Positions 1 to 10,346 of a stretch of DNA of 32,481 bases are shown here, in pieces. Where the stretch lies: the NCBI GenBank assembly GCA_012522275.1, contig JAAYKU010000111.1, positions 1 to 32,481 on the forward strand, read 5' to 3'. A model generated the notes under the pieces. That model did no database searches and was not told the origin of the DNA. It saw nothing but the letters and a program-made list of their open reading frames with translations. Each line of letters begins with the position of its first letter. The stretch's first letter is position 1. This DNA is from Smithella sp. GTDB taxonomy: Bacteria; Desulfobacterota; Syntrophia; Syntrophales; Smithellaceae. The translations under genes were made by a program, and so were the position numbers.

Positions 1-731
1 ATGCCGATCATGGTGCAGGCGGAAACAAACGCGATAATTTTTATCTTGCTGATGTTGATCCCGATGGAATGGGCGACATCCTCGTCGTCATTGATCGCCG
101 CCATCAAAAGACCATAGCGGGATTTGAGCACTTTATTGATGATCCACAGATATGTGAACATGATCACCGTGGAAATATAGCCGATAAAAAGAAAATTGTT
201 TTTGGCGTTGCCCGTATCCAGCAGAGGCACGATGCCGAAAAGTCCTGTGTCCCCCTTGAAAATGTCCGGGTAAATGAAAGTCACTTCAAGAAAAACCAGC
301 GGCAGCAGAAGTGTGAGCAAAACATAGTACAACCCCCGCGCCATCAGGACAAGCGGGCTGAATAAAAGAGCGGCGACCATACATGTCAAAATGGAAAAAG
401 GTAAAGTGATCAATGGCCCCCAGCCGTAGGCGATGCTCAAAAGGGCCGCCGTATAGCCTCCCACACCGATATAAAACTGCGGACCGAAATTCATCCGTCC
501 CGTCCCGATGGTCAAAAGCGCCAGCGGCATCGCGATGGCGGCGTAAATGTTGGCCGAAATCATCGTATTGATCAGCCCGGGGCTGACAAAATAAGATACC
601 GTCGGAAAAATAAACAGAACAACGGCCCAGATCAGTGTGTTGCGCCAGTAGCGCGGCTCAAGCACCCATTCCCATTTTTTGGTTCCCAGCCGGATGACGA
701 TACGGTCCCGCTTTAATTCCATTTCTACCAT
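1..731 (-). CDS. livM: Branched-chain amino acid ABC transporter permease, LivM-like (3' end truncated by window edge)
   Basis: Open minus-strand frame from ATG at 731..729 to the window edge: MVEMELKRDRIVIRLGTKKWEWVLEPRYWRNTLIWAVVLFIFPTVSYFVSPGLINTMISANIYAAIAMPLALLTIGTGRMNFGPQFYIGVGGYTAALLS... Hydrophobic, LivM-type 'IGVGGYTAALL'. It overlaps the livH stop by a few nt. Absent from the ORF track because no stop is present in the window. Confidence 0.85.
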   Translation of the reverse strand, partial: MVEMELKRDRIVIRLGTKKWEWVLEPRYWRNTLIWAVVLFIFPTVSYFVSPGLINTMISANIYAAIAMPLALLTIGTGRMNFGPQFYIGVGGYTAALLSIAYGWGPLITLPFSILTCMVAALLFSPLVLMARGLYYVLLTLLLPLVFLEVTFIYPDIFKGDTGLFGIVPLLDTGNAKNNFLFIGYISTVIMFTYLWIINKVLKSRYGLLMAAINDDEDVAHSIGINISKIKIIAFVSACTMIG

Positions 732-1600
732 AAAGATTCACTCCTTGCTAAGCCCTGAGGGCGGACAATCAGAACAACCATCACGACAATAAGTGCCGAC
801 AGATTCATGAAGCGCGGCTCGCTGATCACAAAACAGGACATGGCATGCGCAAGACCGATGATGTAACTGGCCAGGATGGTTCCTTTGATGTTGCCCAGGC
901 CTCCCAGGACCGCGACCAGAATGGCGGTAATCATGTACGTCCAGCCCATCTGCGGCTCGAGCGCCCAGACCGGCACTACAATCAGCGTTCCGATAATCAC
1001 CGGCACAAGGACAATCATCATCGTGAACATATAAAGCGTCTCCACATTGATGCCGACAATTTTCGACGAATAAATGTCCTGTGACAGGGCGCGGATGGCC
1101 ATCCCGGTTTTTGTTTTGACAAAAAACAGAACAAAGGCGCCGGTCATCAGCAAAGCGATTACCGAACCGACAACCTGTTGCTTGGGAACGACCACGCCGC
1201 CAATCTGAAATATGCCCGACATGAGCGTGGTATCCAGATAAACGCCCGCCTGTATCGGATAAAAATAGTTTGCCGCCTGTTCGACGATCAAGGCGATAAG
1301 CAGCAGTGCCGTCAAAAGGACATCCTCTGCGTTCAAGTATCTTTTGATTATCCCCTTATAAATCAGGGCCGCAATAATAAACTGGATTACAACCATTCCT
1401 AAAATTGAAGGTATCAGCGGCCAGTCCAGCGTCGTCATCAGCATCCAGGTGCCATAAGCCGTCAGAGGGAAGATGTAGGCATACCCGAGATGAAAAATCC
1501 GCAAAACCCCGCAGATCAGAGAAAAGCCGAGGGCAATGAGAAGATAAATCGAGCCCATAAGAAAAGTGTACACCAACACATTCTCAACATAAACTAGCAT
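725..1600 (-). CDS. livH: Branched-chain amino acid ABC transporter permease, LivH-like
   Basis: 291 aa hydrophobic protein. 'SIYLLIALGFSLICGVLRIFHLGYAY' and 'AILVAVLGGLGNIKGTILASYIIGL' match LivH family landmarks. SD-like GAGGGTG upstream. Confidence 0.9.
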   Translation of the reverse strand: MLVYVENVLVYTFLMGSIYLLIALGFSLICGVLRIFHLGYAYIFPLTAYGTWMLMTTLDWPLIPSILGMVVIQFIIAALIYKGIIKRYLNAEDVLLTALLLIALIVEQAANYFYPIQAGVYLDTTLMSGIFQIGGVVVPKQQVVGSVIALLMTGAFVLFFVKTKTGMAIRALSQDIYSSKIVGINVETLYMFTMMIVLVPVIIGTLIVVPVWALEPQMGWTYMITAILVAVLGGLGNIKGTILASYIIGLAHAMSCFVISEPRFMNLSALIVVMVVLIVRPQGLARSESLW

Positions 1601-1850
1601 ACTTTTTCACCCTCAATATTTTTGAACTGATTCTTTACTGCACAATACAAAGTTCCCTGATGAAAAGGAACACTTCCTGAGATTCAGCTGATACCGGATA
1701 GCGCAAAATCCGGACCACCGGGTAAAGACACAAACAGCCGTCGGTTCAGCGTGCGGCAACAACATAGGTTTTTGAAAGCATCGGAACTTGTTTGTCGGGG
1801 GTTATGAAGTACTGACAACGATTTGAAAACTTGAATAGTGTTATTGGCCG

Positions 1851-1876
1851 GCGCAATTCCCGTACGGGCATTGCGC
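1851..1876. repeat. 26-bp near-perfect palindrome GCGCAATTCCCGTACGGGCATTGCGC
   Basis: Reverse complement is GCGCAATGCCCGTACGGGAATTGCGC; only one symmetric pair mismatches (T/C at arm position 8). Lies in the livH-livK intergenic region. Confidence 0.85.
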
Positions 1877-2483
1877 GGAACGGTCTTAAGATGGGTATGC
1901 ATTATATGCTGAACATCTTTGAACACAGAAGATGCTGCGAACACAGGGCCTCCAAAGCTTCCAGATGTAGAATCGGTCCTATTTACAGGGTCTTCCGTTT
2001 GGTTATGAAATCCAAACAGCATCTCCTAAAAACCTTGAATCCTTCACCAGCTTGGCAACTGCTCACATACCACGTCGCTTCAAAATGAAAAAACGAAGCA
2101 GACGGCGTTGAGTTTAAAGCAGATCTGGTTTTTTGTCAATGACAAAAAATTCCGCGCCATTAATTTTGTGAACTTAAAACCTCTGACCACCGTTACTGTA
2201 CGTGACCGCCGGCATGCTTTGCCAAAAATTATTTTTTTGCGCATCCGGCAGCGCACGGCAACAGCCAAAATATCCGGGCAAAGAAACCGAAACGACATTA
2301 CACAAAAATCACACCACCGATGAGGTGGTCTTCTCGACCAATTGGACACGATTTTCATATGACAACCTGGGGATATGTGGAAAAAGCAATTTTCGACTCT
2401 TCAGCCTCATTTTAACAAGCAGGATCGACTTTTCATCATTGCGTCATACCCGCAACCGGCGCGGGAAAGCGAAAAATTAATGC

Positions 2484-2530
2484 TTGACAAAACAAAGCCA
2501 TCTTAATATGAGAAACGACATTCGTTATAC
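2484..2530 (+). promoter_or_regulatory. Candidate promoter plus operator upstream of the ABC substrate-binding protein (site a)
   Basis: TTGACA (2484-2489), 17-nt spacer, TATGAG (2507-2512), then AAACGACATTCGTTATAC (dyad AACGA-CAT-TCGTT at 2514-2526). Same layout as the other sites near TetR. Confidence 0.55.
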
Positions 2531-2824
2531 AGATTTTTACGAACAGGTTTTTTGCGGCAGCTTTGTCTGCTGAAAGGTTGGTGTAGAAATATAAACCACC
2601 GCTTGTCATTAGATGCACGCGAGAGTCCTGCAGGCTACAGTGCATCATTAAAATCCGTGTTCCGTCGAATCAATCGCGGGTGGAGTTTATGCAAAATATC
2701 ATACAGGCGTTAATGCTTGATAGGTTAAGTAAAAGACGGCAGGCTGTAAAAAGCAGTTCTAAACACCGCGTCATGAAAATCTGTTCATGACCGGAATTTT
2801 TATCCAGAGAAGGGGGATATAGCA

Positions 2825-4057
2825 ATGAAGAGTTGGAAAGCGTTACTTTGTACTGTGTTAACGGCTGTATTACTGACGTGGGCCGCGGCAGCTTTCGCGG
2901 ATGAAATTGTCATTGGTTTTTCGGCACCTTTGAGCGGGCCTGCCGCCGAGTACGGCCAGGATTGCATGTATGGCGTCGATATGGCTATCAAAGAACTCAA
3001 CGCGGCCGGCGGCGTCACCGTCGGAGGGAAAAAATACACGTTCAAAATGGAAAGGCTCGACGACCGCATGGACCCGACTCAGGCCAAAAACAATGCCCTG
3101 CGTCTGGTAAACCAGAACAAGGCAATCGTTGTTTTCAGCCCCAACTTCACTTCTGCGGCGGCCATCATGGGCATTCAACCGGCCAATTTCATCCTTGCGG
3201 CCTACACCAGCATTCACGTTCTTCTGGATAAGGGACACCCGATGATCATCACGGCTGTGCCGAGCTTCATGACTTATGCGCAGGTTTTCGTCAACACAGC
3301 TTGGGAAAACGGCTGGCGCTCCTACGCCAGTATCGTGACCACCGGCGGCTATGGCGATGCCTGGCGCAAAGCGTTTCATAGTTTTTGGGCCAACAAAGGC
3401 GGACGCAATGTCGGCGACTTCCCCGCTAACTACTATGCTGAGACCGACTACTCCGCTCAACTCACCGCGGCGCTGGCTAAAAAACCCGACTTTCTGCTCA
3501 TTGGCGGCCCCTCGGCCCCGACCGTGCTGGTCATCGAGCAGGCCAGAGCCCTCGGCTTTAAAGGCGGCTTCGTTGTCATCGACCAGGCCAAGCCGGACTA
3601 TATTACCAAAGTCATCAAAGACATGAAGACCCTCGAAGGAATGATCAGCACCGGTGACCTGGTAAGACTTCCTCTGCCCGCAGTGCCCGGCTTCAGCGAG
3701 AGATTCAGAGCCGCGTATAAAAGAGAAATGACTGCAGAATGCGTGCTGCATTACAATCCGATGAAAGTTATCGCCAAAACTATCCAGCAGTGCCAGTCGC
3801 TGGACCCGGTCGTTATCCGCCGCAATATTCCGAAGGCGCTGCCGACTCTCGGCGATGTCGTCCCCAATGAACTGTTCGGCATGAACGACCAGGGCTTCAT
3901 GTACTGCGGCCTGATCACGCAACAAGTGAAAAACGGCAAGTTTACGAAAGTAAATTATCTGTTCACCTTTCCCAAGACCAAGGCTGAATTTGATAAATAC
4001 AAGAAGATGAGCAAGAGCACAGAGCCTGACATGATTCAGTGGGTGCCCCTCAACTAA
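2825..4057 (+). CDS. ABC transporter substrate-binding protein, branched-chain amino acid (LivK) type
   Basis: Signal peptide MKSWKALLCTVLTAVLLTWAAAAFA, then DEIVIGFSAPLSGPAAEYGQD... typical of periplasmic-binding-protein LivK family (Peripla_BP_6). SD GAGAAGGGGG upstream. Confidence 0.92.
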   Translation: MKSWKALLCTVLTAVLLTWAAAAFADEIVIGFSAPLSGPAAEYGQDCMYGVDMAIKELNAAGGVTVGGKKYTFKMERLDDRMDPTQAKNNALRLVNQNKAIVVFSPNFTSAAAIMGIQPANFILAAYTSIHVLLDKGHPMIITAVPSFMTYAQVFVNTAWENGWRSYASIVTTGGYGDAWRKAFHSFWANKGGRNVGDFPANYYAETDYSAQLTAALAKKPDFLLIGGPSAPTVLVIEQARALGFKGGFVVIDQAKPDYITKVIKDMKTLEGMISTGDLVRLPLPAVPGFSERFRAAYKREMTAECVLHYNPMKVIAKTIQQCQSLDPVVIRRNIPKALPTLGDVVPNELFGMNDQGFMYCGLITQQVKNGKFTKVNYLFTFPKTKAEFDKYKKMSKSTEPDMIQWVPLN

Positions 4058-4091
4058 TCGACTGGGCACAGTTTCAGGCCGGTTACGGAAA

Positions 4092-4140
4092 AAAGCCCCC
4101 TTGCTTCACGTGAAGCAAGGGGGCTTTCATTTTTTTTTAT
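4092..4140 (+). terminator. Rho-independent terminator
   Basis: AAAGCCCCCTTGCTTCA-CG-TGAAGCAAGGGGGCTTT followed by a T-rich tract (ttttttttat). Confidence 0.92.
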
Positions 4141-4246
4141 ACAGCAATGGGGGCAAAACAAGCGGCGCTATCGGCTTGTAGTGAAAAAAACCGGTGCGCC
4201 GCAAAGGGTTTTTCCGATTCCTCGGATGATCAGTGCCAGCGCCCGG

Positions 4247-4630
4247 TTATGGAGAAAGTATCGCTTTAAAAGTCACAGGGTCCGTGGCATAAAGAACAAC
4301 CCGCTCCACTCCTTCCGCGCGGGATTCATGCACCTTGAGATACCCCGGATCGGAGGTCATTTTAAGGAAGGCCTTTCTCGACGGATATTGGACAAGCATC
4401 AACAGATCCCAGTCCTCCTTTCCCTGCAGCAGCTCTTTGGGCTTGCCGAAATATATTACTTTCGCGCCTGCCGCATCGACAAAGGGCCCGGACTCCTTAA
4501 TATAACGAAAATAAGATTCCCGTCCCCCGGCTTTTTTGAACTTCAACAGGTTGAGCATAACAAAAGGCCCATCACTGGGATTGTCCGCCAGTGCGCGAAA
4601 CTGGTCTTCATTGCTTTCCATACCGGACAC
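4247..4630 (-). CDS. DUF1330-family protein
   Basis: 127 aa; 'GPFVMLNLLKFKKAGGRESYFRYIKESGPFVDAAGAKVIYFGKPKELLQGKEDWDLLMLVQYPSRKAFLKMTSDPGYL' resembles DUF1330 (ferredoxin-fold) proteins. GTG start with GGGAGG SD. Confidence 0.8.
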   Translation of the reverse strand: MSGMESNEDQFRALADNPSDGPFVMLNLLKFKKAGGRESYFRYIKESGPFVDAAGAKVIYFGKPKELLQGKEDWDLLMLVQYPSRKAFLKMTSDPGYLKVHESRAEGVERVVLYATDPVTFKAILSP

Positions 4631-4705
4631 GGCTCACCCTCCCTGATAATTCTTTACTGAAAAGGCCGGTCCCCGGCCATCCTGCCGGCCGGAGACCAAG
4701 AGTAT

Positions 4706-5572
4706 TTATTTGAAAAAACTGTTCATCGCCTCTGCAACTTCCTGCGGCTTTTCTTCCTGCAGGAAATGTGCAGCTTTAATTTGGACCACTTCTATCGAAT
4801 CAAAGCAATCTTCCAGATGCATGATGTTCGCCGGTATGATGACTGTATCTTCATTGCCGTAAATGTAGAGTGAAGGCATGGTAAAACGCTTTCCGGCAAG
4901 ACTCGCCCAATGCTGCGCGTCGAGCGGCATCGCCCGGTACAAAGAAGCAGCGGTCGCCGGCGTGTTTTCAATGCTGTAGCAGCGGATGTATTCGGCTATC
5001 GCATCCCGGGGAATAATTCCGTCCTGGCCCTTCTGTCCGAAGAAAAAGCTGACCCATGTTTTTTCATTCCCTTTGATCATCACCTCGGGGAGAATCGGCT
5101 GCATCTGGAAATACTGGTACCAGTAAGGGAAGTATCGAATAGCGATCATCGCTTTGGTTACTTCCTCCGCCCCTTTGAGATTTGTCAGAACGGGAATGTT
5201 CATGATGACAAATTTTTTCACCCGCTCCGGCTGCAAAAAAGCCAGTTCCTGTGCCACAATGCCACCCCAGTCGTGACCGACCAGAAAGAAATCTTTGATG
5301 CCCATGGCATCGAGAACCTCTATGATATCTTTGGCCAGTTCAACTTTCTGGTAGGCTTTCACATCAAGGGTGCGCTCGGAATCACCCAATCCGCGTAAAT
5401 CAGGTGCGATCACCCGCCATTGCGGGTCAAGGAATTTCGTCACCCCCTCCCAGCAGTACGAACTTTCCGGCCACCCGTGGATCATCACCACCGGGAAGCC
5501 GTCTTTGTTGCCCCGGTCCCGAACGTTGAATGTTCCTCTCGCTACTTTGACTTTTTCTGTTTTCATGTTCAT
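4706..5572 (-). CDS. Alpha/beta hydrolase (epoxide hydrolase / haloalkane dehalogenase-like)
   Basis: 'VVMIHGWPESSYCWEGV', 'RVIAPDLRGLGDSE', nucleophile elbow 'LVGHDWGG', C-terminal 'AAHFLQEEKPQEVAEAMNSFF'. The listed ORF start (5614) is a TTG inside the operator; the ATG at 5572 (MNMKTEK) has a strong AAGGAGG SD. Confidence 0.9.
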   Translation of the reverse strand: MNMKTEKVKVARGTFNVRDRGNKDGFPVVMIHGWPESSYCWEGVTKFLDPQWRVIAPDLRGLGDSERTLDVKAYQKVELAKDIIEVLDAMGIKDFFLVGHDWGGIVAQELAFLQPERVKKFVIMNIPVLTNLKGAEEVTKAMIAIRYFPYWYQYFQMQPILPEVMIKGNEKTWVSFFFGQKGQDGIIPRDAIAEYIRCYSIENTPATAASLYRAMPLDAQHWASLAGKRFTMPSLYIYGNEDTVIIPANIMHLEDCFDSIEVVQIKAAHFLQEEKPQEVAEAMNSFFK

Positions 5573-5608
5573 ATCATTCCTCCTTAAGGATAAGTGCCGG
5601 TAAAATAT

Positions 5609-5655
5609 ATACAACGATCGTTGGTTGTAATAAATTGAAGGAGTGTCCCTGTCAA
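5609..5655 (-). promoter_or_regulatory. Candidate promoter plus operator of the alpha/beta hydrolase (site d)
   Basis: On minus strand: TTGACA (5655-5650), 17-nt spacer, TATTAC (5632-5627), then AACCAACGATCGTTGTATAT. Contains perfect palindrome CAACGATCGTTG (5612-5623). Confidence 0.65.
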
Positions 5656-5805
5656 GGTTTATTTAGCGTCCGCCGCCGCCGGCTTGTTTCTTACCCGTTC
5701 TCTTCCCGGCCTCATCCCACCTTCAGCATCCCAGCCGGTCCCTTGCGCATAATTATACATAGTTGCCGAAAAATCAAACAATTAGAGGGTTATTTGAAAA
5801 ACATC

Positions 5806-5858
5806 TTGACAAAACGCGCCTTTCTCCATTAATGGATTTGAACTGACGTCCGTTGTAA
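5806..5858 (+). promoter_or_regulatory. Candidate promoter plus operator upstream of the NMO-like gene (site b, weaker)
   Basis: TTGACAAAAC (5806), -10-like ATTAAT (5828-5833), then AACTGACGTCCGTTGTAA (imperfect dyad AACTGACGTCCGTT). Shares cTTGACAAAAC and CGTTGTA with the other sites. Confidence 0.45.
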
Positions 5859-6046
5859 AGAGGAACCGACAGGAGAAAATCAAATAAGCTTTTAAGGAGA
5901 AGCACTCACGCACTACCCGCCTCAACACACTGCAGCAGGTCCACCCCCGCGAATCAATGACCAGTATCAGGGAAATAACCGCTGATTATTAAGACCTTAC
6001 GGTAGAGTATAGGCTAAACCAAAAAATATTATAAAGGAGATGTTCT

Positions 6047-7162
6047 ATGATCAAGACAAGACTGACCGAAAAACTCGGGATTAAATATCCCATTATTCAG
6101 GCGGGCATGGGTCCGTTCTCCAACAACAACCTTTGCGTGGCCGCGGCCAACGCGGGCGTGCTGGGCCTGCTGTCCACCAGCGGTCTTTTCAACAAACATG
6201 ACCAGCCCTGGGTATACAATGCCTTTTGCGACACGGGTGAAGCCAACCGTGATGACGACATGGCCACTGTGCTGGAAACGGTTCTGAAACGCACCCACCG
6301 CCTGGTCAAAGACAAGGGCGGCGTTTTCGGCCCCAACGTGATGGTCTCCGCCGAGCTCAAAGAAAAGGCAAATATCATGATCGAAACGGCCATCAAAGTG
6401 CGGGAAGAAAATCCGGAAATGAAAAAGACACTGAAGGTGATATACACCTCCGCCGGTGACCCGATGGGCTGGGGTGACAAAATTAAAGGCGCGGGGTTTA
6501 CCTGGATTCACATTATCCCATCTGTCCGCGCCGCCATGCGCTGCAAAAAAGCCGGCGTGGATATAATTGTCGCTTCCGGCCACGAAGGCGGCTTCCATAC
6601 ACATTGGGAACCGCTGCACTCGATGGTTTTATTCCCCGCCGTAGTGGAGGCGGTCTCCGATGAAAATACCCTCGTAGTAGGCGGAGGAGGCGTATCCGAC
6701 GGCAAAACTCTGGCCGCTTCGCTGGCGATGGGTTTGGACGGCGTGCTCATGGGAACCCGCTTTCTGGCCACACAGGAAAGTGATTTCCCGCCTTTGTGGA
6801 AACAGTCCGTTGTAGAAGCTCAGGACCGCGGCACACTGGTGGCCCGCGGATATGTGGGACCGGCCCGCTGGCTGAGAACCCCTCGCAGTGAAGAGCACGC
6901 GGTCAACACACTGAAAAAATCGCCGGGCGTGTTTCTGGGAACGCCTGACAGCTACATGGACATGGAAGATATGTCTTTGATCGAATATGAAAACGAATCA
7001 ATCAAGGCCGTTTTCGAAGGCGATAAAGAAAAGGCGATGATGGCTGCCGGAGAGTGCGCTCAACGAATCAGCGACATGCCTAAGGTGGAGGACCTGGTGA
7101 AATCGATTGCCTCTGAAGCAGAAGAAATCATCGGCGGCATGGCTAAAAAATATCTGGGATAA
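6047..7162 (+). CDS. Nitronate monooxygenase / 2-nitropropane dioxygenase family (FMN-dependent, FabK-like) protein
   Basis: 'MIKTRLTEKLGIKYPIIQAGMGPFSNNNLCVAAANAGVLGLL', 'VDIIVASGHEGGFHTHWEP', 'VVGGGGVSDGKTLAASLAMGLDGVLMGTRFLATQES' are NMO-family motifs. SD AAGGAGAT upstream of ATG. Confidence 0.9.
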   Translation: MIKTRLTEKLGIKYPIIQAGMGPFSNNNLCVAAANAGVLGLLSTSGLFNKHDQPWVYNAFCDTGEANRDDDMATVLETVLKRTHRLVKDKGGVFGPNVMVSAELKEKANIMIETAIKVREENPEMKKTLKVIYTSAGDPMGWGDKIKGAGFTWIHIIPSVRAAMRCKKAGVDIIVASGHEGGFHTHWEPLHSMVLFPAVVEAVSDENTLVVGGGGVSDGKTLAASLAMGLDGVLMGTRFLATQESDFPPLWKQSVVEAQDRGTLVARGYVGPARWLRTPRSEEHAVNTLKKSPGVFLGTPDSYMDMEDMSLIEYENESIKAVFEGDKEKAMMAAGECAQRISDMPKVEDLVKSIASEAEEIIGGMAKKYLG

Positions 7163-7174
7163 AACTCCTGCAAA

Positions 7175-7215
7175 ACCGAATAAAAAAGCCGGCGGAGCCG
7201 GCTTTTTTATTCGGT
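7175..7215. terminator. Bidirectional terminator between convergent NMO-like and tetR genes
   Basis: Perfect 19-bp stem ACCGAATAAAAAAGCCGGC / GCCGGCTTTTTTATTCGGT with 3-nt loop (GGA); T tract on either strand. Confidence 0.93.
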
Positions 7216-7228
7216 CACGCCGTCCGGA

Positions 7229-7864
7229 TCAGGGCATTACCGTTTTCATGACATTTTTTTCAATTAAATCGATCAATTCCTGCTTTGTATACTTTTTCAT
7301 GTTCCAGTGACGCAGCGGATAGACGGACAACTGATAAAGAATCATGTTGGCGGTAAAAGAAGTATCCTCAATCAAGAAAACGTTTCTTTCGACCCCTTTT
7401 TTCAGGATTTCCTCTATCCGCTCGAAAACCTGCTGTTCTCTTTCCAGAATTACTTTCAACAGTTTCTTCGGCAGAGACTTGGACTCCCGGTACATCAGCA
7501 GGATTTCATCGCCATAGTCGTAGCCGCTGTTGATCATTTCACGGATAGCGGTTCTGAGCTGCAAAACAGGGTCATCAATATTCATGATTTCATCTTTTTT
7601 AAAATTCCCGTAAACAGGATTGTGGAGCATTTCAAAAACCAGGAAAAGAATCTCCTCCTTGCTTTTAATAAAATAATAGAGATTTCGTATATCTATTCCG
7701 GTCGCCTTCGAGATTTCCCTCATCGAAGTCTGAGCGTAGCCTTTTTTGATAAAAAGTTTCGTCGCTTTTTTAAGTATGTGCAGCTGCCTTTTCTGATAAA
7801 GGGTGTTGTCTCTGCGCCCGCGGCCGCCGCTGCCGGCGGCCTTCTTTTCTCCTTGAGTCTGCAT
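7229..7864 (-). CDS. TetR/AcrR family transcriptional regulator
   Basis: N-terminal HTH 'ILKKATKLFIKKGYAQTSMREISKATGIDIRNLYYFIKSKEEILFLVFEML'. ATG at 7864 (MQTQGEKK) with GGAG SD preferred over the upstream TTG at 7879. Confidence 0.92.
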   Translation of the reverse strand: MQTQGEKKAAGSGGRGRRDNTLYQKRQLHILKKATKLFIKKGYAQTSMREISKATGIDIRNLYYFIKSKEEILFLVFEMLHNPVYGNFKKDEIMNIDDPVLQLRTAIREMINSGYDYGDEILLMYRESKSLPKKLLKVILEREQQVFERIEEILKKGVERNVFLIEDTSFTANMILYQLSVYPLRHWNMKKYTKQELIDLIEKNVMKTVMP

Positions 7865-7937
7865 GGCATTTTTCTCCAAACATGCTATGGTTCCGTATGG
7901 GACCGATTTTGTCTTTCAACCGTATTGAAAAAATGGC

Positions 7938-7984
7938 TTGACAAAACATCGCAGCCAAAATAATTCATCCAACGATCGTTGTAT
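7938..7984 (+). promoter_or_regulatory. Candidate promoter plus operator upstream of the hydroxyacyl-CoA dehydrogenase, in the divergent tetR intergenic region (site c)
   Basis: TTGACAAAAC (7938), then CCAACGATCGTTGTAT (7969-7984), identical 16-mer to site d. Perfect palindrome CAACGATCGTTG at 7970-7981. Confidence 0.65.
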
Positions 7985-8058
7985 GGTGTCCTTTTATAGC
8001 AGGACTTATCATTGTTTGCTAATCTTTTCAAAAAAACCAAAGAAAGTGAGGAGAAAAC

Positions 8059-8928
8059 ATGAAAATTGATGATGTGAAAAACGTGTGCGTAGTAGGTGCC
8101 GGCAATATGGGCCATCAGATCGCGCTCCAGTGTGCTCTTTCCGGTTATAAAACGGTCAGCACGGACGTTGTCCCGGCCGTTTTGGAAAAAGCGGAAAAAT
8201 TTGTGGACAATTATCTGCCGGGCCGCGTCCAGAAGGGAAAGATGACGGAGGATGAGGCCAAAGCCGCGCGCTCCAGAATTTCCTTCACCGGCGACCTGAA
8301 GGAGGCAGCCAAAGACGCGGACGTGGTCATCGAGGCTGTACTGGAAAGAGTTGACCTCAAGCGCAAAATTTTCGCCGATCTGGACAAGATAGCGCCCCCC
8401 GGCGCCATACTGGCAACCAACAGCTCCTTTATCGTCAGCTCACGCATCGCCGACGCGACAACACGCCCGGATCGTGTCTGCAACCTGCACTTTTTCAACC
8501 CGGCACTGGTCATGAAGCTGGTAGAAGTGGTTCAGGGCTCCCATGTGTCGGATGAAACCGCTCAGTGCATGATGGATTTCTGCCTTAAAATCGACAAAAT
8601 CCCTATTCATGTAAAAAAAGAAGTGGATGGTTTTGTCTTAAACCGTATTTTCAGCGCGATCCACAAAGAGGCTTTCTGGATGCTGGAAATGGGCGTGGCC
8701 TCCTACGAGGACATCGACAAGGCGTGCGTTTACGGCGCCGGCCACCCGATGGGGCCCTTCCGCCTGCTGGATCTCACCGGCATCGATCTGGCCTATGACA
8801 TCGGCATGAGCCACTTCTATGAGTCGGGCGACCCCGCAGACCTGCCCGTGCCGACCATTGTGAAAAAATATACTGAAGGCAAGTTCGGCCAGAAAACGGG
8901 CGAAGGCTTCTACAGCTACAAGAAATAG
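8059..8928 (+). CDS. 3-hydroxyacyl-CoA (3-hydroxybutyryl-CoA) dehydrogenase
   Basis: Rossmann 'VCVVGAGNMGHQIALQCALSGY', 'LHFFNPALVMKLVEVVQG', 'VDGFVLNRIFSAIHKEAFWMLEMGVASYEDIDKACVYGAGHPMGPFRLLDLTGID'. SD GTGAGGAG. Confidence 0.95.
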   Translation: MKIDDVKNVCVVGAGNMGHQIALQCALSGYKTVSTDVVPAVLEKAEKFVDNYLPGRVQKGKMTEDEAKAARSRISFTGDLKEAAKDADVVIEAVLERVDLKRKIFADLDKIAPPGAILATNSSFIVSSRIADATTRPDRVCNLHFFNPALVMKLVEVVQGSHVSDETAQCMMDFCLKIDKIPIHVKKEVDGFVLNRIFSAIHKEAFWMLEMGVASYEDIDKACVYGAGHPMGPFRLLDLTGIDLAYDIGMSHFYESGDPADLPVPTIVKKYTEGKFGQKTGEGFYSYKK

Positions 8929-8939
8929 CCACACCAGTA

Positions 8940-8969
8940 AAAAAGGCGCCCCGCACGGGGCGCCTTTTT
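8940..8969. terminator. Rho-independent terminator between convergent genes
   Basis: AAAAAGGCGCCCC-GCAC-GGGGCGCCTTTTT. Confidence 0.92.
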
Positions 8970-8987
8970 GGTTTAGCCGCTTTTTTC

Positions 8988-10346
8988 TCACCACTGAAGA
9001 TCAACAAAAATTTCGCTGAGCGTCGGATGGGCAATCACCCACGACTTCAATTGTTTTCTCGTAAGTCGGCAGCTCACCGCCAGACCGAGAGGAGCGATCA
9101 GATCGGCGGCATTGTCGCCTGCGATCACCGCTCCGATTATTTCATTGTGATGAAACAAAGCCTTCACAAACCCCTGCCCCATCAATTCCGTACGCGCTAT
9201 GATATTGGCGCTGTAACTTGATTTCATAACTTCCACGCTCAGGCCTTCGTCGGCGGCACGCCTCTGAGTGTAGCCAACACGCGCAATCTGGGGATGGCTA
9301 TAAACAACGGAGGGAATAACGTTTTCATCATATTTATAATCACTACCGCCAAACATGCTTTGTGCGGCGACTTTCGCCTGCACGGCGGCGCGATGAGCCA
9401 GCATCATGCCTCCGGTGACATCTCCTGCGGCATAGATATCATTGGCGCTGGTCATCATGCGCGCGTCTGTTTTTATTCCTTTGAGATCATAATCGATCCC
9501 GGCTGCCTCAAGTTCCTTTTGGTGCAAAAGAGGCCTGCGGCCCGTACAAAGAAGGGCGCAGTCTGCTCGCAGTTGCGCAGTTTCAGCGTCTTTCCGGATT
9601 TGCATGACGATTCCTTCCGGAGCCTCATCAAGTGAAACCAGCGTCGTCGAGACATGCAGCGCAACGCCCAGACGGGAAAGCTCCTGGTGGAGAAAAGCCG
9701 CCGCCTCTTCATCCTCCTGCGGCAAAATTCTCTCCATCAGCTCGACCAGCGTGACTTTGACACCGAGTTCGGCGAAGAAAACAGCGTATTCCACGCCGAT
9801 AAAGCTCGCACCGACAATGATTATACTCGAAGGCAGACAGTTCATATTGAGAATGCCGTCCGAGGACAAAATCCGTTTGGAAAGACAAATACCATCCGGT
9901 ATGAGCGGCTCAGAGCCCCAGGCAATGAGAATGTGGTCCGCCTTCAGGCGCCGGCTTCGTCCCGTCGCGTCCGTCAAGCGGACTTCACAGGGCGAAATAA
10001 TTTCCCCGGCGCCCTCCCTGATTTCGACACCGGCATTTGCAAGCAACCTGCGCGCGCCCAGAGCCGCAACTTTCACCATCTGATCCTGATGTTTCTTCAT
10101 TGCGGCAAAATCCACCGTTGCACTGTCCGTGTCTATCCCGACACGCCGTAGTTTTTTGAGTCCCGCGTAAAAATGGCTGCACGCAAGCAGGGCTTTAGTC
10201 GGAATGCACCCCCGGTGCGTACATGTGCCGCCCCAGCCGTCTTTTTCCATGATCAAAACTTTTTTTCCGGCTCCGGCCGCTGTTTGTGCCGCGGCCAGAC
10301 CCGCCGGCCCGCCGCCGACGACAACCAGATCATATCGGTCAGACAT
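8988..10346 (-). CDS. Dihydrolipoamide dehydrogenase-like FAD-dependent pyridine nucleotide-disulfide oxidoreductase
   Basis: 'YDLVVVGGGPAGLAAAQTAAGAGKKVLIMEKDGWGGTCTHRGCIPTKALL' (redox-active CxxxxC), 'IIIVGASFIGVEYAVFFAELGVKVTLVE', 'DIYAAGDVTGGMMLAHRAAVQ', C-terminal 'AHPTLSEIF'. Confidence 0.92.
   Translation of the reverse strand: MSDRYDLVVVGGGPAGLAAAQTAAGAGKKVLIMEKDGWGGTCTHRGCIPTKALLACSHFYAGLKKLRRVGIDTDSATVDFAAMKKHQDQMVKVAALGARRLLANAGVEIREGAGEIISPCEVRLTDATGRSRRLKADHILIAWGSEPLIPDGICLSKRILSSDGILNMNCLPSSIIIVGASFIGVEYAVFFAELGVKVTLVELMERILPQEDEEAAAFLHQELSRLGVALHVSTTLVSLDEAPEGIVMQIRKDAETAQLRADCALLCTGRRPLLHQKELEAAGIDYDLKGIKTDARMMTSANDIYAAGDVTGGMMLAHRAAVQAKVAAQSMFGGSDYKYDENVIPSVVYSHPQIARVGYTQRRAADEGLSVEVMKSSYSANIIARTELMGQGFVKALFHHNEIIGAVIAGDNAADLIAPLGLAVSCRLTRKQLKSWVIAHPTLSEIFVDLQW

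Follow-up and report, generated by a model that had tools for sequence, protein, structure and literature searches.

Most TetR proteins are repressors. One that controls an anaerobic catabolic cluster is MbdR from Azoarcus sp. CIB, an acyl-CoA-responsive repressor of CoA-thioester catabolism that recognizes the operator ATAC-N10-GTAT and has 3-methylbenzoyl-CoA as its effector (PMC4424350). This cluster combines a dedicated ABC transporter operon with CoA-thioester enzymes, and the MbdR operators overlap the -10/+1 region (PMC4424350). PfmR (TTHB023) from Thermus thermophilus is linked to fatty-acid/phenylacetate genes and has a 16-bp palindromic operator with an AAYG-NN-CRTT centre at sites over +1, measured as (a/c)Y(g/t)A(A/C)YGryCR(g/t)T(c/a)R(g/t) (PMC7022988). 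FadR from Bacillus, PsrA, and FadP are TetR regulators of beta-oxidation-like genes (PMC5343134 for PsrA and FadP), and FadP is described as restricted to betaproteobacteria within the set of taxa examined (PMC5343134).

The window analyzed here, a 32,481-nucleotide stretch of DNA from Smithella sp., is one contig of a 2.53 Mb draft genome in 315 contigs. It contains a gene predicted to encode a protein with a TetR_N domain (PF00440) scoring 43.9 bits against a curated cut-off of 24. The AlphaFold model (pLDDT 85) has the all-helical two-domain fold with a ligand domain that is typical of TetR/AcrR regulators. At the sequence level the protein also has the family trait of a palindromic operator at adjacent promoters that is kept in relatives. 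The closest solved structure by sequence and by fold is PfmR (3vpr; TM 0.71-0.83; about 23% identity). The inner bases of its consensus, A-A/C-Y-G-NN-C-R-T-T, fit the operator described below, whereas the outer bases and the target genes differ. AibR (5k7h/5k7z; 21% identity), solved with isovaleryl-CoA and operator DNA, is the second-nearest fold and governs another pathway, in Myxococcus. The other nearest folds are a Clostridium fatty acid regulator, FadR, KstR2, MbdR, and BkaR. Several of these besides MbdR we take, partly from the titles of their entries, to be acyl-CoA-responsive repressors of CoA-thioester catabolism.

Membership in the FadR or PsrA family was not supported. The protein scored 29.6 of 200 bits against the Bacillus FadR equivalog model (NF053878) and 22.5 of 300 bits against the Vibrio model for PsrA (NF053516), both under the family cut-offs. 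MbdR (4uds) has a similar fold with 16% identity in the fold alignment, and both regulators accompany a transporter and CoA-thioester enzymes. However, the enzyme set of MbdR is different, its effector is 3-methylbenzoyl-CoA, and its ATAC-N10-GTAT operator is not the form conserved here, TACAACG-NN-CGTTGTA (PMC4424350).

Four promoter sites in the window

The original prediction described four promoter-like regions, a to d, each with a TTGACA box, a downstream dyad, and a common right half-site YCGTTRTA, and assigned them to one local TetR regulon. All of its coordinates and distances were correct. The full sites extend over 2484-2529 (a), 5806-5857 (b), and 7938-7983 (c) on the plus strand and 5655-5610 (d) on the minus strand, with 39 nt from TTGACA to CGTT at a, c, and d and 45 nt at b. 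The sequence CTTGACAAAA occurs in the window at a, b, and c only. Site c does lie between tetR and the divergent HBD gene. Genes were assigned by Pfam, NCBIfam, and PDB comparisons.

Table 1. Candidate regulatory sites and genes of the locus, in window coordinates.
Feature	Position	Strand	Basis
Liv permease	725-1600	-	
Site a, -35 box TTGACA	2484-2489	+	Direct reading, pattern match and profile match
Site a, degenerate operator 5' of binding-protein gene	2514-2531	+	PWM 12.0; profile E=0.02
Liv/HAAT-type periplasmic substrate-binding protein (SBP)	2825-4057	+	Pfam Peripla_BP_6
DUF1330 protein, downstream of hydrolase, same direction	4247-4630	-	Pfam; arrangement kept in relatives
Alpha/beta hydrolase, nearest epoxide hydrolases and fluoroacetate dehalogenase	4706-5569	-	Pfam, PDB comparison
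Site d, strong operator TACAACCAACGATCGTTGTA	5610-5629	-	PWM 27.1; profile E=1.2e-8
Site d, -35 box TTGACA	5650-5655	-	Pattern match
Site b, -35 box TTGACA	5806-5811	+	Pattern match
Site b, operator, left half decayed	5842-5859	+	PWM 13.3; profile E=0.007
NMO-family flavoprotein, nearest solved structures FabK enoyl reductases	6047-7162	+	Pfam, NCBIfam, PDB
TetR-family regulator, 211 aa, TetR_N and TetR_C_24, presumed repressor of the four sites	7229-7864	-	Pfam, orthologs, predicted fold
Site c, -35 box TTGACA	7938-7943	+	Pattern match
Site c, strong operator TCCAACGATCGTTGTATG, tetR/HBD intergenic region	7968-7985	+	PWM 24.8; profile E=2e-10
3-hydroxyacyl-CoA dehydrogenase (HBD)	8059-8928	+	Pfam, NCBIfam

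All four sites match TTGACA-N30..45-YCGTTRTA, a pattern with 0 matches expected in the shuffled window, and they are its only matches in the entire draft genome. A profile built from 27 sites in relatives, with the window's own sites excluded, also ranked them as the top four genome-wide (E of 2e-10 for c, 1e-8 for d, 0.007 for b, and 0.02 for a). The sole other match at E <= 10 was the reverse palindrome of d. The genome-wide distribution is thus non-random; further targets could be missed because the assembly is a 95% draft.

The dyad claimed for all four sites is strong in c and d and degenerate in a and b. Using an operator-only PWM we found that a and b score below every training site (minimum 20.0), in a range where about 0.3 chance matches are expected per window. 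Site b appears to be a decayed ortholog because the nearest relative has an intact operator, CCAACGTACGTTG, at the same position. The dyad read in site a, AACG-N5-CGTT, departs from the conserved two-base gap. Counts of AACG-N4-TCGTT in the window were at chance, which makes the dyad reading of site a uninformative. A genome search for the dyad alone with a five-base gap, which is the wrong spacing, also gave chance-level counts (67 forward and 64 reverse against 66 and 47 in the control).

These scores raise the possibility that only c and d function and that a and b are relics, with the operator lost in this species and the promoter kept. The low PWM scores, the spacing of site a, and the large contribution of the -35 part to the profile scores of a and b fit such a loss. 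Nevertheless, both sites lie at orthologous positions, still rank fourth and third in the genome, and keep the right half YCGTTRTA whole, and weak binding to half-intact operators can occur. We consider the loss of function at a and b possible but rather unlikely, and expect that the regulator would bind them more weakly than c and d.

Several other features lie around these sites. A leader of about 295 nt (2530-2824) separates site a from the binding-protein start codon, and an Rfam scan of 1600-9000 found no family in it. Strong terminator-like hairpins occur 3' of the binding-protein gene (4092-4127, plus) and between the hydrolase and DUF1330 genes (4666-4699, minus). We found no operator site in the window 5' of the Liv permease gene. 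Genome G000 gave nine matches to the Liv-type binding protein at E <= 1e-60, and only the copy in the window had an operator-profile match upstream. For the NMO-like protein, a role as an FMN reductase is more plausible than an O2-dependent nitronate monooxygenase because the host, judging from its relatives, is presumably a strict anaerobe.

Conservation of the operator and its regulator

Relatives of the TetR protein were found in Smithellaceae/Syntrophaceae and other Desulfobacterota, mostly in metagenome-derived genomes. Orthologous loci keep the motif, as footprinting of a true regulon should find. In related Smithellaceae the operator lies 5' of hydrolase, NMO-like, HBD, and SBP genes; the HBD operators are weak in several relatives too (about 12). 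Further genes preceded by the operator in relatives include another binding protein (L153), an acyl-CoA dehydrogenase gene adjoining the NMO-like gene (L049), and a Liv permease operon, about 410 nt upstream of which the operator was seen (L157:3900 and L160:311).

We compared 51 genomes of the family, calling TetR orthologs at >= 60% identity and profile sites below 1e-6. Sites were present in 19 of the 20 genomes with an ortholog and in 2 of the 31 without one (Fisher 8e-11, an optimistic value because the genomes are related and their independence is overstated). The two site-bearing genomes without an ortholog are 68% (G036) and 84% (G048) complete. The one genome with an ortholog and no profile match (G041, 67% complete) yet has an operator scoring 20.7 5' of its SBP gene. 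In G016 the TetR ortholog is split between two frames and contains an in-frame TAG (C65:15195-15621) and operator-profile matches are missing, which is consistent with joint loss.

Orthologs and paralogs of the target genes also differed. With the window's copy excluded, 10 of 11 SBP orthologs (>= 60% identity) had an upstream operator scoring >= 20, compared with 0 of 18 paralogs (< 60% identity). Eleven hydrolase orthologs, counting the window's own, had the operator and none of 8 paralogs did; the only hydrolase of ortholog rank that lacks it belongs to G025, a genome without the TetR ortholog. Four loci (L170, L171, L172, and L173) share an SBP operator variant, TACATCGCTCGTTGTATG, and a divergent HBD paralog (42-43% identity).

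In Desulfatitalea and related genomes, TetR orthologs with 55-61% identity accompany the same palindrome at other genes, none of them orthologous to the window's targets: those for an old-yellow-type FMN reductase, a zinc alcohol dehydrogenase, and a short-chain dehydrogenase. The strongest reason to assign the operator to the TetR protein, and not to the target genes, is that it is kept with the regulator while the targets are non-homologous. A gene that we assigned to the old-yellow-type FMN reductase family by reading its sequence lies directly before the hydrolase gene in G025, linking the two gene sets functionally.

These results bear on whether the sites could be bound by another of the genome's seven TetR proteins, for instance the paralog on contig C39 (48% identical), as close paralogs can have operator cores in common. 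No such operator was found near the C39 or C196 paralogs, and the recognition-helix region has different residues (IDIRNLYYF versus INLGNLYNY). The sites are also mostly missing from genomes without an ortholog of the window's TetR, and relatives' paralog-linked NMO genes have a different palindrome. In these TetR-paralog and NMO-paralog modules (L053:11369-11384; L050 near 10885) it is TAAAACG-NN-CGTTTTA or a near variant, which suggests that sister regulators have diverged in specificity. Control by another TetR is therefore very improbable. Conservation, uniqueness in the genome, co-occurrence with the TetR gene, and the presence of the operator before all four target classes in relatives argue for the single local regulon that had been proposed.

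Operator form and promoter geometry

At relatives' loci, TTGACAAAA is followed by TACAACG-NN-CGTTGTA or, often, by a form four bases longer, TACAAC-CAACGNTCGTTGTA. CGTT, the terminal TA, and the left-half AAC are near-invariant in 47 collected sites, although CGTT and TA belonged to the pattern used for collecting them. The operator form is thus partly ascertained, since the patterns used to collect the training sites were similar to those of the original prediction; this bears less on the genome-wide and ortholog/paralog contrasts. The spacing values of 39 and 45 nt were right for the window, but a fixed distance is not conserved. In the 47 sites the distance from TTGACA to the operator is 32-47 nt, indicating that the operator is a module of its own whose position can shift between the -10 region and a point just beyond +1. 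Both divergent promoters share one palindrome in some relatives (L054, L057, L074, and L162). Inspection by eye revealed no convincing promoter directed at tetR near site c.

A sigma-70 promoter scan found no consensus -10 at any of the four sites and missed all four promoters because their -10 elements are weak. Relatives do keep a T-[TA]-A element, placed 17 nt after TTGACA. A perfect -35 box paired with a weak -10 is what would be seen if the TetR protein were an activator aiding polymerase. However, with the operator 32 to 47 nt after TTGACA, from -10 to past +1, bound protein would be in the way of polymerase, and repression is the mode of most TetR proteins (PMC4424350). We regard activation as even less probable than control by another TetR. 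That the sites resemble each other by chance or as generic sigma-70 promoters, whose consensus the -35 part does follow, is contradicted by the conservation, the genome-wide uniqueness, and the ortholog/paralog contrast, leaving it a negligible probability.

A candidate catabolic switch in Smithellaceae

The TetR protein is very probably a local regulator, most likely a repressor, of the four promoters, as judged from the sequence comparisons and the predicted fold. It would control the Liv-type binding protein (a), the hydrolase-DUF1330 unit (d), the NMO-like flavoprotein (b), and HBD (c). We propose that a dimer, possibly two on TACAAC-CAACGNTCGTTGTA, binds the palindrome over or just past -10/+1 and would thereby block RNA polymerase. 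The block would end when a pathway metabolite occupies the C-terminal domain. An acyl-CoA is a plausible effector, and repression relieved by an acyl-CoA is likeliest because the nearest folds include acyl-CoA-responsive repressors and PfmR has the same operator centre.

A search of the open-access literature, with subscription papers outside its scope, found no earlier description of this regulon. It is likely a small, ordinary, and previously undescribed genetic switch. The comparisons support well a local regulon that is new but of a known type, with logic like that of MbdR, rather than a new kind of system. A broader reading, which we consider speculative and unlikely, is that the regulator heads an uncharacterised catabolic regulon of Desulfobacterota for an undescribed anaerobic route that would use an imported organic acid, with the operator retained and targets exchanged between lineages. 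This route might include the Liv transporter, the epoxide-hydrolase-like hydrolase, FabK/NMO-like and old-yellow-type flavoenzymes, and acyl-CoA and hydroxyacyl-CoA dehydrogenases.

For the largely uncultured Smithellaceae, the locus provides a testable regulator-operator pair with a candidate co-regulated gene set, and would place the NMO-like, DUF1330, and hydrolase genes, whose functions are uncertain, in one pathway. The operator could be used to find more members of this pathway across Desulfobacterota; the genes it has already picked out in Desulfatitalea-type genomes encode an old-yellow-type flavoenzyme, a zinc alcohol dehydrogenase, and a short-chain dehydrogenase.
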